NCBI RefSeq assembly: GCF_014639315.1
Contig: NZ_BMFY01000009.1
Coordinates: 62,001-126,000, forward strand
Direction: 5' to 3'
DNA length: 64,000 nucleotides
DNA from: Sediminivirga luteola
GTDB taxonomy: Bacteria; Actinomycetota; Actinomycetes; Actinomycetales; Brevibacteriaceae
Shown here piece by piece: positions 2,571-42,703 of the stretch. The notes beneath the pieces are model-generated. The model did not search any database. It had not been told where the DNA came from and saw only the letters and a list, made by a program, of their open reading frames with translations. The first letter of the stretch is position 1; each line of letters begins with the position of its first letter. The translations under genes were made by a program, and so were the position numbers.

Positions 2571-4190
2571 TCAGGGCACGTAGCAGATGGCGTCGTCGCC
2601 CTCGCCCTCGGGGGCCGGCGCCGCGACGGCGCTCGCCTCTGAGGCCGATGCGGGAGCCTGTGCTCCCAGCGCGCCGCCGGAGCCTGCGGCGGTCACGGCC
2701 GGCCCTGCAACGGCAAGGCCAGGTGCTCCCGTTCCCGCAGCAGCGACGCCCAGGGGCATACCCAGCCCCGCAGCGGCGAGACCCTGCGGTGTTCCGAGTC
2801 CCCCAGCAGCGCTGCCCGGTCCCGCGGCGGCATCGGCGTCCGATTCCGCCTCGCTCTGCTCGATGGTCTGCTGCACGAGCGCATGGATCTGGGTGAAGTC
2901 CGGATGGGCGGGAGTCACCTCGGGCGGAACGAAGTCCAGTTCCTGCAGATCGCGCTGGCGGGTCTTCTGCGCCAGCTCCACGAAGGAGCTCAGCTGCGCC
3001 TCGGGGATGTCCGTGGAGACCATGTCCGGTGCCGCGCTGGCGATCGCCTGGAACCGGGTCAGGAGGGTCGCTGGCTCCAGCTGGCTGAGCATCGCCTCCT
3101 GCACGCAGCGCTGCCGCGCCATGCGCTCGTAGTCGCTCGAACCGCGCCGCGAACGGGCGAACCAGAGCGCGGTGCGGCCGTCCATCCGCTGCTCGCCGAT
3201 CTCGATCCACCCGTGCTCCGGCTCGGCGTCGACCGAGGTCAGCACGGAATCCATCGGGACCCGCTGCCCGGAGACGATGGTGATGCCGCCGACGGCGTCG
3301 ATCAGGCCGGCGAAGCCGTCCATGTCGATCATCGCGTAGAACTGGACCTCCAGCCCCGTGACACCGCTGGCCGCGTCGATCATCGCCTGCGCGCCCGGAT
3401 CGTCCACATCGGGATAGAGCTCGGCGTGCTCCTGGCCCTGCAGGTACACGCTGTTGATGAGGCATTCGTCGCCGCAGTTGTACCCCTGCGGGTAGACCTG
3501 GTGCAGGGGGCTGTCCTCCGGGAAGGGGACGTTCTGCATGTTCCGCGGGATGCCGAACATCACCGCCTGGCCGGTCCGGGCGTCGATGCTGACGACGGTG
3601 ATGCTGTCCGGGCGGATCCCCTCCCGGCCCTTGCCGGCGTCCGAGCCCAGCAGCAGGATGTTGTATCGCCCGTCCACGGGCTGCACGGCGCCGCCGGAGG
3701 CGAAGATGTCGGAGATGAGGCCGCGCTGGCTGTTGAGGGTGCCGGTGCCGTAGGCCAGTCCTCCCCCGACGATCAGCAGGACCAGCGCGGACGCCCCGGC
3801 GACCCAGGCGCGCACCCGCGGCTTCAGGCCGACGAACCGTACCAGGCGGAGGGTGTCGAAGAAGCAGAGCGCCCACACGATCGTGTAGGCCAGCAGGAAG
3901 AGGGTCAGCAGCAGCAGGGTCATGCTGCTGGTCGCCGCGGCCAGCAGGGACTCCAGCGATGTCAGCGCCAGGACGACCGCACTCAAGACCAGCAGCCACA
4001 GCGCCGCCGTCGCCGCCATGCCGATCCGGGCCAGCCGGCGGCTGCCGGCGACGAGCTGGACCGTCCCGGGCAGCAGCACGGTCAGCAGCAGGAAGTACCA
4101 GGCACGTGCGGTGCGGGCGCTCGGATCGGCTTTGGCCGGGTAGCGCAGCGGATCGACCAGCTCCGGGATACGGCGGGTACGCTCAGCCAC
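2571..4190 (-). CDS. LytR-CpsA-Psr (LCP) family cell-wall glycopolymer ligase
   Basis: This 539-residue protein starts at GTG 4190 behind a GGGGC element, only 9 nt after purE, so it is probably the last gene of a purK-purE-lcp unit. Residues 25-155 hold four hydrophobic segments. The LCP domain begins near residue 175 with the family signature LLLGSDAGKGREGIRPDSI, followed by MFGIPRN and an Arg-rich WFARSRRGSSDYERMARQ block near residue 345; these Asp/Arg residues bind pyrophosphate-lipid substrates in the family. LCP enzymes transfer undecaprenyl-linked glycopolymers to peptidoglycan on the outer membrane face. The last 90 residues are Ala/Gly-rich low complexity. The polymer it attaches is unknown. 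Confidence 0.88.
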   Translation of the reverse strand: MAERTRRIPELVDPLRYPAKADPSARTARAWYFLLLTVLLPGTVQLVAGSRRLARIGMAATAALWLLVLSAVVLALTSLESLLAAATSSMTLLLLTLFLLAYTIVWALCFFDTLRLVRFVGLKPRVRAWVAGASALVLLIVGGGLAYGTGTLNSQRGLISDIFASGGAVQPVDGRYNILLLGSDAGKGREGIRPDSITVVSIDARTGQAVMFGIPRNMQNVPFPEDSPLHQVYPQGYNCGDECLINSVYLQGQEHAELYPDVDDPGAQAMIDAASGVTGLEVQFYAMIDMDGFAGLIDAVGGITIVSGQRVPMDSVLTSVDAEPEHGWIEIGEQRMDGRTALWFARSRRGSSDYERMARQRCVQEAMLSQLEPATLLTRFQAIASAAPDMVSTDIPEAQLSSFVELAQKTRQRDLQELDFVPPEVTPAHPDFTQIHALVQQTIEQSEAESDADAAAGPGSAAGGLGTPQGLAAAGLGMPLGVAAAGTGAPGLAVAGPAVTAAGSGGALGAQAPASASEASAVAAPAPEGEGDDAICYVP

Positions 4191-39383: not shown

Positions 39384-39929
39384 TCAGCCCTGCTTGACGA
39401 CGGAGATCTCGACCTCCAGGGTCACCTTCTCGCCGACCAGCAGGCCACCGGTCTCCAGCGGAGCATTCCAGGTGATGCCGTAGTCGCGACGGTCGATCAC
39501 CAGGGAGCCCTCGAAGCCGGCACGGGTGGCGCCGAAGGGATCGACGGCCTCGCCGCCGTACTCGAAGGGGATCGTCACGGACTTGGTGACGCCCTTGATC
39601 GTCAGATCACCGGTGACCTCGAGGGTGTCCCCCTTGGCCTGCACAGCGGTGGAGACGAAGGTGATCTCCGGATAGGTCTCCGGATCGAAGAAATCATTGG
39701 TACGCAGGTGGCCGTCACGCTGCTCGTTGTTGGTGTCGATGCTGGCCACCGTGACGTTCACCTTCACCGACGACTCGGCGAGGTTCTCCCCGGCTGCGAC
39801 GATCTCGCCGGAGAACTCATTGAACTGGCCCCGCACCTTGGAGATCGCCGCGTGGCGGGTGACGAAACCGATGCGGGAGTGGGTCGGATCGATCTGGTAG
39901 TCGCCCCGGAGGTCGGCGAGTGCAGTCAT
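39384..39929 (-). CDS. YceI family protein
   Basis: A 181-residue lipocalin-like protein that in this family binds polyisoprenoids. Motifs include GDYQIDPTHSRIGFVTRHAAISKVRGQFNEFSGEI, the SIDTNNEQRDGHLRTNDFFD loop, YPEITFVST and VTGDLTIKGVTKSVTIPFE. There is no signal peptide, so it is cytoplasmic, unlike E. coli YceI. ATG 39929 has a good AGAGGAA ribosome-binding site. It is divergent from the erm leader. Confidence 0.92.
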   Translation of the reverse strand: MTALADLRGDYQIDPTHSRIGFVTRHAAISKVRGQFNEFSGEIVAAGENLAESSVKVNVTVASIDTNNEQRDGHLRTNDFFDPETYPEITFVSTAVQAKGDTLEVTGDLTIKGVTKSVTIPFEYGGEAVDPFGATRAGFEGSLVIDRRDYGITWNAPLETGGLLVGEKVTLEVEISVVKQG

Positions 39930-40036
39930 GGTTCCTCTTTCCTCGGTTGATGTGTGCTGCCACAACTCTATGCAGAAATAGATGCAAACGCAAGAAGTCT
40001 GCGTGCTCCATGATACTCGCGGTGCGGTGGTCCTGC

Positions 40037-40042
40037 TACAGT
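40037..40042 (+). promoter_or_regulatory. -10 element of the erm leader
   Basis: TACAGT lies 7 nt before the ATG of the leader peptide at 40050, so transcription probably starts at or next to the ATG. No clear -35 hexamer is visible 16-18 nt upstream, suggesting dependence on an activator. WhiB7-type regulation is possible, but the AT-rich patch (39969-39991) lies farther upstream than in known WhiB7 promoters. Confidence 0.5.
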
Positions 40043-40049
40043 GAGCGTC

Positions 40050-40115
40050 ATGGCAGGAATCATTCTCATGGCCGGGCTCGGCCAGCAGCACGCGATGCGG
40101 CCCCGTCGCGCCTGA
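40050..40115 (+). CDS. Putative Erm leader peptide with an Arg-X-Arg arrest-like motif
   Basis: A 21-codon frame upstream of erm, too short for automatic tracks. The C-terminus reads AMRPRRA, containing Arg-Pro-Arg and Arg-Arg. Known macrolide-dependent stalling peptides of other erm genes end in or contain Arg/Lys-X-Arg/Lys (for example MRLR). The start appears leaderless. Ribosome stalling here would plausibly alter folding of the 216-nt leader that follows. The stalling itself is inference; the frame and its position are seen. Confidence 0.6.
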   Translation: MAGIILMAGLGQQHAMRPRRA

Positions 40116-40331
40116 CTCGGCGCCGACGCACCCGCCGATCCTTTTCGGATCCGCTTTCGCGCTGACCGCGCCGAGACCTCCGACCTCTCGTCAGACGAGT
40201 GACTCGGAGCCGGCCGACGTACCCTGCCTCCTGCAGGCGCCCGGTGGCGAGCTTGTCACCACTCCCCCGGTCCGTCCATTTCCGCCGTTCCTCTCCGAGC
40301 ACTCCCGTACCGCGATCACGGAGTGCCTCCC
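40116..40331 (+). promoter_or_regulatory. erm attenuator region with SD-masking hairpin
   Basis: This 216-nt untranslated stretch separates the leader peptide from erm. CTCGGCGC (40116-40123), directly after the leader stop, pairs with GCGCCGAG (40168-40175), with a small CGATCC/GGATCC-type hairpin inside. Just before erm, GCACTCCCGT (40299-40308) pairs with ACGGAGTGC (40318-40326), with one bulged C and a 9-nt loop. The second arm contains the GGAG ribosome-binding site (40320-40323). This is the layout expected for translational attenuation. Confidence 0.6.
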
Positions 40332-41300
40332 TTGTCATCACGATCCAGCCGTTCCCTGCACGGCGGCCGGCACGAACTCGGCCAGAACTTCCTGCACCAC
40401 CGCCCCACCATCGACCTCATCCTGGAACTCGTCCGCCGGACGGATGGTCCGCTGCTGGAGCTTGGCGCCGGCGACGGCGCGCTCACGGTGCCGCTGTCCC
40501 GTCTGGGCCGGCCTCTCACCGCGGTGGAGCTGGACGAGCACCGCGCGGCCCGGCTTGCCCGGCGGCTGCCGGAGGTCCGGGTCCTGCAGCGCGATGCCCT
40601 GCGCGTCCGGCTGGACGCCGAGACCATCGTCGGCAACGTTCCCTTCCACCTGACCACACCCATTCTGCGCCGGCTGCTAGAGCACGGCGGCCCGCCTAGA
40701 AGCGCGCACGCCACCGGTCGCGATCAAGGCAGCCAGAGAAGCGGCGATCGCCCCCGCGGCGACGACCGCCGGCACGGCGACGGCTGGCGCGATGCGCTGC
40801 TGCTGGTGCAATGGGAAGTCGCCCGTAAGCGCGCCGGCGTGGGCGGCGGCACCCTGATGGGCGCCCTTGCCGCGCCGTGGTTCGAGTTCGCCCTGCACGG
40901 CAGGGTGCCGGCGAGCGGTTTCCGCCCGATGCCCAGCGTCGACGGCGGCGTCTTAAGCATCCACCGCCGCGAGTCGCCCCTGCTTCCGGCATCCGAGCGG
41001 CGAGGGTACGAGGCTTTCGTCCGCGCGGCGTTCACCGGCCGCGGTCGCGGCCTGGCGCAGATCCTCGGACGCGTTTCAGACCGGCAGCACGCAGGCACCG
41101 GCGGAACATCCCGGCCACCGGGCGCACCGCACGACCGGACACGTGAGCCCGCACGCCCCGGCGCGCGGCCACGCGGGGCCGGCCCCCGGGAGCCGGCACT
41201 GGTTCGCACGGCGCTGCGCGCGGCGGGCATCGGCCCTCAGGCGCTTCCGCGCGATCTCGCTCCCGCGCAGTGGGTCATGCTGTGGCAGCGGCTGAGCTAG
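40332..41300 (+). CDS. erm: 23S rRNA (adenine-2058-N6)-methyltransferase Erm
   Basis: A 322-residue methyltransferase expected to methylate A2058 and give macrolide-lincosamide-streptogramin resistance. Motif X is HELGQNFLHHRP, motif I is LELGAGDGAL, motif IV is NVPFHLTTP, and LLVQWEVARKRAGVGG and AAFTGRGRGLAQIL are typical of actinobacterial Erm proteins. Relative to those remembered, about 30 extra residues (Arg/Asp/Gly-rich) lie after RRLLEHGG, and about 40 extra near residue 255. TTG 40332 is chosen because GGAG lies 8 nt upstream. The in-frame GTG at 40323 overlaps that SD. A leader peptide and hairpins precede it. Confidence 0.88.
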   Translation: MSSRSSRSLHGGRHELGQNFLHHRPTIDLILELVRRTDGPLLELGAGDGALTVPLSRLGRPLTAVELDEHRAARLARRLPEVRVLQRDALRVRLDAETIVGNVPFHLTTPILRRLLEHGGPPRSAHATGRDQGSQRSGDRPRGDDRRHGDGWRDALLLVQWEVARKRAGVGGGTLMGALAAPWFEFALHGRVPASGFRPMPSVDGGVLSIHRRESPLLPASERRGYEAFVRAAFTGRGRGLAQILGRVSDRQHAGTGGTSRPPGAPHDRTREPARPGARPRGAGPREPALVRTALRAAGIGPQALPRDLAPAQWVMLWQRLS

Positions 41301-41361: not shown

Positions 41362-42579
41362 TCAGGTCCGGGCCCGGCGCCCGGCCATCAGGTAGAACAC
41401 GAACCCGACGGCTGCCATCGCCCCGCAGCCGGTCATCACGGCCGCGGTGGCCAGGCCGTCGTTGCCGAGCACGCCGACCAGCGGCGTCACCGCGGCACCG
41501 AGGCCGAACTGCGCCGCGCCGAGCACGGCTGCGGCGGTTCCGGCGGCCTCGCCGTGACGGGACAGCGCCAGCGCCGTGACATTGGGGACGGTGAGCGAGA
41601 CACCGGCGAGCATGCAGAACAGCGGCAGCATGAACCAGGCGATCCCCTCGGCGCCAGCGGCCTGCGCCGCCACAAGCGCCAGCCCAGCGACGCAGATGAG
41701 GCCCAGAGCGCCGGCGATGATCCTCTCCGGCGCGATCCGCCTCAGCAGTGGCGGGTTCAGCTGCGCTCCGCCGATCAGCACGAGGCCGGCGGCGCCGAAG
41801 ACCAATGCGTACTGCAGTTCGCCCAGGCCGTACTGGCGCTGGAAGACGAACGAGGAACCGGCGATGTATCCGAAGAGGCAGCCGAACGCGAGTCCCACCA
41901 CCACGATCAGCAGGATGAAGCGGCCATCGCCGAGCACCGCCCGGTAGCCCCGGAGCGCTTGTCCCGGCCCGGAGCGCCGCCGCTGCGGGGGCAGCGTCTC
42001 CGGCAGCGCGATGACAGCGAGCAGGATCAGCATCGCCCCGGCGACCGCCAGCACCGCGAAGATCCACCGCCACGAGCCGGCCAGCAGCACCACGCCGCCC
42101 AGGGAGGGCGCCAGCACCGGGGCCGCGCCCATCACCAGCATCAGCCGGGATATCACGACGGCGGCGGCGCTGCCGGCGGAGACATCGCGCACCACAGCCA
42201 TGGCCACGACCGTCGCCGCGGCGGCGCCGACGCCCTGCAGAACGCGCAGCACGCCGAGCACGGTGATGTCCCAGGCGAGCACGGCAAGACCGGACGCCAC
42301 CACGTGCAAGGCGATGCCGAGGATGAGCGGAAGCCGGCGCCCGGCCGCATCGGAGAGGGGACCGATCAGGAGTTGCCCGGCGGCGAGGCCCAGCAGCGTC
42401 CCGGTCAGCGTCAGCTGCACCAGCGTCCCGCTGGCCGAGAGGTCCTCGGCGATGGCGGGGAAAGCGGGCAGGTACATATCGATGGTGAGCGGGCCCAGGG
42501 CGACGAGCGCGCCGAGGATCAGGATGAGGCCGGCGGTCATCGGCCGGGTGGTGCCGGCCGGCTGCGCGGTGGAGGTCAT
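41362..42579 (-). CDS. Bcr/CflA family multidrug efflux MFS transporter
   Basis: A 405-residue transporter with twelve hydrophobic segments. The Bcr/CflA pattern is clear: LGALVALGPLTIDMYLPAFPAIAEDL in the first helix (the TDMYLPAFP-type motif), GQLLIGPLSDAAGRRLPLILG (motif A loop), FLxGVGAAAATVVAMAVVRD-like helix 4 and SWRWIF before helix 6. Family members export drugs such as bicyclomycin or chloramphenicol. ATG 42579 has GGAG 6 nt upstream; the longer frame to 42636 has none. It is convergent with erm, and a joint drug-resistance role is possible but not shown. Confidence 0.9.
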   Translation of the reverse strand: MTSTAQPAGTTRPMTAGLILILGALVALGPLTIDMYLPAFPAIAEDLSASGTLVQLTLTGTLLGLAAGQLLIGPLSDAAGRRLPLILGIALHVVASGLAVLAWDITVLGVLRVLQGVGAAAATVVAMAVVRDVSAGSAAAVVISRLMLVMGAAPVLAPSLGGVVLLAGSWRWIFAVLAVAGAMLILLAVIALPETLPPQRRRSGPGQALRGYRAVLGDGRFILLIVVVGLAFGCLFGYIAGSSFVFQRQYGLGELQYALVFGAAGLVLIGGAQLNPPLLRRIAPERIIAGALGLICVAGLALVAAQAAGAEGIAWFMLPLFCMLAGVSLTVPNVTALALSRHGEAAGTAAAVLGAAQFGLGAAVTPLVGVLGNDGLATAAVMTGCGAMAAVGFVFYLMAGRRART

Positions 42580-42703
42580 CGGGCTCCGTTCCGGAACATG
42601 CCCGCCGGGGGCGTCGTATCGGGGATCATGTCTCAAGCATGCCCTGGAGGCGGGCCGCTTCGAGCCAGCGGGGTCCCTCGCAAGGACACGGCTGGCCCGC
42701 GGC

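Follow-up and report, generated by a model that had tools for sequence, protein, structure and literature searches.

A leaderless-type leader peptide and competing RNA helices suggest macrolide-responsive translational attenuation of erm genes in Sediminivirga luteola and related actinobacteria

The erm gene of Sediminivirga luteola lies behind a short leader frame and a set of competing RNA helices that most probably (we put the likelihood at about 85%) form a ribosome-operated translational attenuator, in which a leader peptide translated from a leaderless mRNA senses macrolides. The conserved spacing between a -10 hexamer and the leader start codon, the conserved Arg-x-Arg motif near the end of the peptide, and the helices that involve the Shine-Dalgarno (SD) sequence of erm together point to an attenuator of the known Erm kind, with a leaderless start. 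Inducible Erm methyltransferases are a main cause of resistance to macrolides, lincosamides and streptogramin B, and their leader peptides are textbook arrest peptides. The stretch of DNA analyzed, hereafter the window, spans 64,000 nucleotides of a genome of 3.86 Mb over 45 contigs; its features are collected in Table 1.

Table 1. Predicted features of the erm leader region in the window.
Feature	Position	Strand	Remarks
-10 element TACAGT	40037..40042	+	TGC just before (extended -10 like); no recognisable -35
Leader peptide ORF	40050..40115	+	21 codons plus stop, MAGIILMAGLGQQHAMRPRRA; predicted start coincides with mRNA 5' end
Arg17-Pro18-Arg19 codons CGG CCC CGT	40098..40106	+	Predicted stall: Pro18 in P site, Arg19 in A site
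Segment 1	40178..40191	+	Pairs with segment 2; 60/1000 shuffles fold as well
Segment 2	40195..40209	+	40195-40209 with segment 1; 40197-40209 (GAGTGACTCGGAG) with segment 3
Segment 3	40293..40308	+	40293-40304 with segment 2; 40299-40308 with segment 4
Segment 4	40318..40326	+	Contains erm Shine-Dalgarno GGAG 40320-40323
erm ORF, probable 23S rRNA (A2058) N6-methyltransferase	40332..41300	+	TTG 40332; longer mechanical ORF from GTG 40323

Profile matches assign the product of the gene downstream of the leader to the Erm group of RrnaAD proteins. It matches PF00398 with 94.9 bits (cut-off 24), and its closest solved relative by sequence is Erm(38) (E 3.5e-64). The top NCBIfam models, those for Erm(46), Erm(55) and Erm(38), each score below their own cut-offs, and the general NCBIfam Erm model reaches 209.2 bits against a cut-off of 212, with the match split by an insertion. 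Methylation of A2058 is probable, and macrolide resistance is predicted. The only other RrnaAD gene in the genome (164.7 bits) presumably encodes the housekeeping enzyme KsgA. For erm, we prefer the start codon TTG 40332, with the GGAG 8 nt upstream of it, over that of the longer mechanical frame. The protein exceeds its relatives in length (319 query residues, compared with 253 codons in locus L033); it contains an insertion rich in Arg, Gly and Asp at about residues 122-150 and, from reading of the sequence, a second one at about 258-298. A gene for a Bcr/CflA-type multidrug efflux protein (41362-42636) is encoded on the opposite strand and runs towards erm. On the other side, a YceI-family gene (39384-39929) is divergent from the erm leader, so that the upstream region is common to both.

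The sequence-only reading had described a 21-codon frame ending in Arg-X-Arg, 7 nt past TACAGT, and the letters bear this out: the leader begins at ATG 40050, 7 nt past the hexamer, and its C-terminus reads M-R-P-R-R-A before the stop TGA at 40113-40115, which lies 204 nt ahead of the erm GGAG. An in-frame GTG at 40041 was discarded as the leader start because it falls inside the -10 hexamer. Across both strands of the 64 kb, only two frames of 11-30 codons (ATG or GTG) begin 6-8 nt past a TAnnnT hexamer, and an R-x-R ending occurs only in the erm leader. A consensus scan of 39900-40500 found no sigma-70-like promoter pair.

We compared 110 erm loci, comprising the window locus, 29 loci returned from the 42 further genomes of its family that gave a match, and 80 belonging to named genomes, which are the best 80 of 288 relatives; the set is biased to close relatives owing to this choice. 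Among the named genomes are Microbacterium, Kocuria, Amycolatopsis, Mumia, Aeromicrobium, Leucobacter, Isoptericola and Frankia. In most relatives, translation of the upstream DNA gives a short frame resembling MGTICAAPVMGRTLVFRDRRA-stop; the window peptide equals a typical relative in length (21 residues) and in its R-x-R-R-A ending, with a different body. A leader was found in 100/110 loci when frames were picked by the Arg motif, a count that is partly circular for that reason. In a peptide-blind count, frames of 11-30 codons were picked solely by a TAnnnT spacing of 6-8 nt, using the 101 distinct loci of the 110 with at least 400 nt upstream (L018, L033 and L091, with less than 400 nt, and six duplicates were left out). 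Such a frame was present in 91 of these 101 loci, and in all 91 at least one of them carried R-x-R no more than three codons from the stop. The reverse strand, used as a control, held a TAnnnT-spaced frame in 3/101 loci, with R-x-R in one, and an R-x-R ending was seen in 11/226 other short frames of the same DNA.

The first TAnnnT-spaced frame of each locus yielded 74 distinct peptides, 72 of them with Arg at both -5 and -3. The residue between, at -4, is D in 49, P in 6, L in 5, H in 5 and E in 3 peptides, with others in the rest, and the distance between the predicted 5' end and the X codon of R-x-R is 51 nt in 52/74. The Arg codon at -5 is CGC in 46 cases, CGT in 20 and CGG in 6; the window locus uses CGG and CGT for its two Arg residues, where relatives mostly have CGC. 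Since Arg at -5 and -3 survives synonymous change, these codons point to selection that acts on the peptide, and not on the RNA alone, as what conserves R-x-R. We consider it unlikely that the RNA switch is real and the peptide no drug sensor, in which case pairing would be what preserves the C-terminal RRA codons along with the bases downstream of the stop, and any slowed translation, rather than a specific macrolide stall, would open erm. The stop and the bases that follow it are indeed strongly conserved (TGACGGCGCG in 58/92 distinct loci), and there is weak covariation in a hairpin beyond the stop (75/10000), both of which fit that explanation; against it stand the persistence of the two Arg residues through synonymous codons, the window included, and the lack of covariation between the leader end and the post-stop bases (z 0.2).

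Start contexts were counted in 92 distinct loci (98 minus six duplicates); L015, L018 and L091, which have no assigned start, were left out, and six starts (L006, L009, L034, L063, L065 and L083) were set by hand. The distance from a TAnnnT hexamer to the leader start is 6-7 nt in 80/92 loci, compared to 8/1486 for other ATG or GTG codons, and 6-8 nt in 88/92, compared to 14/1486. A strict SD motif was found upstream of 1/92 leader starts and loose G-rich 4-mers upstream of 9/92, and the base preceding the start is C in 88/92. In Streptomyces lividans, the mean distance between TAnnnT hexamer and transcript start is 6.3 nt, and purines make up 97.1% of the first bases of leaderless transcripts (PMC8079986). 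Given these figures, the -10 spacing and the absence of an SD, transcription would be expected to begin at the leader start codon. The window leader has the layout of a leaderless gene, with a -10 placed for a start at the start codon and no SD, and it would be translated from a leaderless mRNA with a predicted transcript start at or beside A40050. A different account, that TACAGT is inactive as a -10 in the cell, that the transcript starts further upstream and that the spacing has some other cause, draws on the lack of a recognisable -35 in the window; it is quite improbable in view of the excess of correctly spaced hexamers over the control codons, the C at -1, the single strict SD motif, and the agreement with the distance and the purine preference in S. 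lividans (PMC8079986). Its odds overlap with those of a peptide that does not sense drugs, because both can hold together.

The same layout was found on plasmids. A scan that allowed 8-40 codons, ATG, GTG or TTG starts and 5-8 nt spacing placed a frame 6-7 nt past TAnnnT in all 11 plasmid-borne erm records fetched, of 40 matched, including Erm(36), Erm(46), Erm(50), Erm(51), Erm(55) and two Erm(X). R-x-R is present in 10 of the 11 leaders, in mid-peptide in Erm(50) and Erm(51). The Erm(46) leader (L120) has the leaderless layout, reads VGNTNIAVTEFRRF and ends in TEFRRF, without R-x-R, and drug sensing may differ there. In a class-wide draw, a matching Erm occurred in 7/148 genomes (own genome counted), and a leaderless-type R-x-R frame preceded erm in five of the six other loci, one of which (L155) repeats L092. 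These counts suggest that the leaderless layout is common to many actinobacterial erm genes.

Between the leader and erm, the window RNA can form alternative helices from four segments. The hairpin that the sequence-only reading had placed over the erm GGAG was confirmed, in that GCACTCCCGT at 40299-40308 is pairable with ACGGAGTGC at 40318-40326. Taken alone, this helix 3:4 is modest, with 19/1000 shuffles of 40297-40334 and 73/200 shuffles of the wider 40280-40345 folding as well. A competing helix 2:3, absent from the earlier description, joins 40197-40209 with 40293-40304 through 12 pairs and one bulge at -20.5 kcal/mol; it is reached by 3/2000 shuffles of the intergenic stretch, and is equalled or beaten by 124/2000 random 13-mers of the GC-rich window paired with the same stretch. 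Helices 2:3 and 3:4 are mutually exclusive because both use 40299-40304. The full leader folds no better than its shuffles (z -0.97, 15/100). The pair that encloses the SD, GCACTCC/GGAGTGC, is altered from that of the relatives, with pairing retained. No T run follows 3:4, which is therefore not intrinsic-terminator-like; control by an intrinsic terminator was rejected, the sole terminator-like match in 39900-40500 being one ahead of the leader on the reverse strand. No Rfam family matched the leader region of any of the four loci searched (L003, L020, L043 and L100).

In most relatives, erm is preceded by GGTGCTCC, followed after roughly 8-14 nt by GGAGC. Opening the SD costs a median of 9.1 kcal/mol against a mean of 5.9 kcal/mol with shuffled flanks (108 loci, duplicates kept; 60 shuffles per locus; L040 and L071 of the 110 left out for want of an SD motif), and 42/108 loci fall in the best 5% and 95/108 in the better half. 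Helices 2:3 and 3:4 were examined by alignment-free permutation tests with a motif-anchored, 9-nt segment 3; the 92 distinct loci minus L071, i.e., 91, were reduced by similarity to 49 non-redundant loci. Among these 49, in which shared ancestry remains, the best match of the intergenic stretch to segment 3 of its own locus (helix 2:3) has a mean of -16.04 kcal/mol, compared to -13.54 kcal/mol when segment 3 is permuted among loci (0/10000); controls are flat (z 0.5 with segment 3 reversed, z 0.7 with the coding part of the leader), and 3:4 gives -14.77 compared to -14.31 kcal/mol (163/10000). For 1:2, the means are -9.94 and -7.98 kcal/mol (0/10000, control flat) in 45 loci that likewise retain shared ancestry, four of the 49 having been left out because 2:3 was weak or the upstream DNA too short. 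Alignment A1, in which a gap in segment 2 puts the groups out of register, did not enter the pair counts. The comparison argues strongly for helices 1:2 and 2:3 and mildly for 3:4. The arrangement thus holds the two parts of an Erm attenuator, a helix that sequesters the SD and an exclusive alternative helix able to free it.

Comparison with relatives also decides whether frame and hairpin arose by chance in GC-rich DNA, with erm expressed constitutively. Although the hairpin in its wide context and the whole window leader are unexceptional against shuffles, the family tests and the single TAnnnT-spaced R-x-R frame in 64 kb make this explanation extremely unlikely. The elements from which the sequence-only reading had argued, namely the spacing between -10 and start, the Arg-x-Arg ending and the SD-hiding hairpin, are conserved in relatives beyond controls.

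We propose the following sequence of events for the attenuator. Transcription would start at or next to A40050 and give a 21-codon leader on a leaderless mRNA. When no drug is present, the ribosome would complete the leader and helices 1:2 and 3:4 would form, with the SD hidden in 3:4; this pair of helices would be the OFF state. A macrolide or ketolide in the exit tunnel would stall the ribosome near Arg17-Pro18-Arg19, a site that we infer from the conserved Arg-x-Arg and the case of ErmDL. The stall would induce erm: segment 2 would pair with segment 3, the SD would be freed, Erm would be made, and A2058 would be methylated. The register given in Table 1 is taken by analogy from ErmDL, for which PMC8298421 describes a drug-bound ribosome halted while Leu7 occupies the P site and Arg8 the A site. 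The same study reports that stalling on ErmDL leads to mRNA refolding and Erm expression, and that changes to its Arg residues abolish telithromycin stalling and affect erythromycin stalling only partly (PMC8298421).

The geometry bears on how such a stall would reach the helices. A ribosome with its P site on codon 18 extends to about the leader stop codon, and segment 1 follows 62 nt past that stop in the window, a gap that is 39 nt in L100; a stalled ribosome would fall short of segment 1. Segment 1 of ermC is part of the leader, where the stalled ribosome masks it directly. Direct masking of that type is excluded by the geometry of the window. Equilibrium folding gave no indication that the SD would open upon a stall: with a footprint at the stall codon, the mean opening cost in 49 loci was 6.8 kcal/mol, compared to 6.7 kcal/mol when free, the cost fell by more than 1 kcal/mol in 13/49, and it went from 7.2 to 8.4 kcal/mol in the window. 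This folding did not separate states with a footprint at the stall codon, codon 8 or the stop from one another or from the footprint-free state. Masking the entire window leader as far as the ribosome lowered the SD cost from 7.1 to only 5.6-6.6 kcal/mol at every position tried, stall codon or not. We also tried and rejected a relay in which the post-stop bases pair with a segment C and C closes the 1:2 stem; no covariation was seen between the leader end and the post-stop bases (z 0.2) or between C and C' (z 0.5), and that between the post-stop bases and C was only weak (75/10000). The signal may be carried by co-transcriptional timing, by the weakly supported post-stop hairpin, or by protection of the mRNA.

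It is conceivable, though we hold the idea tentatively and think it rather doubtful, that the leaderless start contributes to how the switch works and that actinobacterial erm control had this design ancestrally, with the 5'-end, initiation and timing details that follow. Because the mRNA begins at the leader AUG, a constant 51 nt would separate the stall codon from the 5' end in most species, and fewer in the short leaders of the Erm(36) type. One or two ribosomes would fill the 5' end and shield it from decay, and initiation of the 70S type would still sample the drug when SD-dependent initiation is impaired. The link to helices 1:2, 2:3 and 3:4 would be made by co-transcriptional timing and not by direct masking.

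Several parts of the attenuator are already known, including R-x-R leaders, SD-hiding erm hairpins, and leaderless leaders in amino-acid attenuators. ErmDL, the leader of ermD, shares with the window a short leader ORF and an Arg-x-Arg motif, in its case Arg-Leu-Arg; the motif stands at residues 6-8 in an in vitro cassette with an SD, whereas that of the window stands at residues 17-19 behind a leaderless-type start (PMC8298421). The attenuation of ErmC and ErmB likewise combines a leader ORF with helices that hide or free the erm SD, yet their leader peptides belong to other classes than that of the window (PMC10219788, PMC11264731). At whiB7, as at the window, a stalled ribosome on an actinobacterial uORF reports drugs that target the ribosome, but there an antiterminator and a terminator control a transcription factor, rather than an erm SD (PMC10727445). 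Closest in layout are the Erm(X) leader (WP_011152926.1, annotated as an erythromycin resistance leader peptide) and a frame before Erm(36): like the window, both carry R-L-R or R-F-R and have TAnnnT 7 nt before the ATG, upstream of a related Erm, and they differ in their peptide bodies and in length (15 and 14 codons). The leaderless placement of these two leaders is our reading of their DNA.

Leaderless polycysteine attenuators have reportedly been found in mycobacteria. Like the window, LeuL1, LeuL2, TrpL1 and IlvL of S. lividans (PMC8079986) and the ilvB leader of Corynebacterium diphtheriae (PMC5784534) place a leaderless leader ahead of hairpins. Unlike the window peptide, these leaders are rich in the regulated amino acid and are thought to sense it; several use transcription termination, and they are not drug sensors (PMC8079986, PMC5784534). 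The earlier remark that a leaderless start would be unusual for a stalling peptide accordingly holds in part, since leaderless leaders of amino-acid attenuators have been described in actinobacteria (PMC8079986, PMC5784534), whereas no leaderless Erm leader was found described in the open-licence full text searched. In the same open-licence text, RDRRA occurred in six papers, all unrelated by title, and the passages on ErmB, ErmC and ErmDL do not describe their leaders as leaderless (PMC10219788, PMC11264731, PMC8298421). This suggests that what may be new here is the leaderless start of a macrolide-type Erm leader.

If the leaderless layout is true, one conserved design would cover many actinobacterial erm genes, including the plasmid classes with their hosts Corynebacterium, Trueperella, Rhodococcus, Mycobacteroides, Cutibacterium and Micrococcus, and the role of leaderless initiation in drug sensing would become testable. 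A 2024 comparison of erm upstream regions noted uORFs annotated for 14 among 35 known genes, predicted them in 21 more homologs without a universal pattern, and inferred an erm ancestor without uORFs (PMC11264731). Within actinobacteria, a leader and helix set recurs widely in the loci compared here, which bears on the proposal of a uORF-free ancestor (PMC11264731).

No leaderless-type frame was found within -400..-40 in 10/101 loci. The exceptions include L029, where such a frame is located at -406, L009, L014 and L109, where an R-x-R frame is present and TAnnnT is absent, and L023, which has a different R-L-R frame; in L004, L040 and L057, no leader frame was seen within -400..-40. At L040 (Desertihabitans), erm directly follows and overlaps an ORF (742-2478) with two ABC ATPase signatures, which we read as an ATP-binding ABC-F-type protein; given the overlap, erm may be co-expressed with it. 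In L008 the leader frame continues beyond the usual stop, and in L112 (Brevibacterium) TAnnnT-7-ATG is retained with the frame cut to 8 codons and no R-x-R; both are natural variants in which regulation might differ.

The ten bases from the leader stop read TGACGGCGCG in 58/92 and TGACAGCGCG in 15/92 distinct loci; their conservation exceeds that of the peptide, and no pairing tested accounts for all of it. As evidence, the post-stop DNA pattern was set aside after it matched 46/396 genomes of the order, with many of the places looking like chance; a version of the pattern adapted to the window has a single occurrence in its own genome, at the erm leader. In L043, L044, L081, L082 and L102, A-rich stretches (AAAT, GAAAATC) lie about 40-45 nt upstream of the leader starts and resemble the AT-rich element of WhiB7-dependent promoters; such a stretch is not clear at the window locus. 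In L020, a relative from the same family, erm is followed downstream by a SAM-IV riboswitch (3079-3189).
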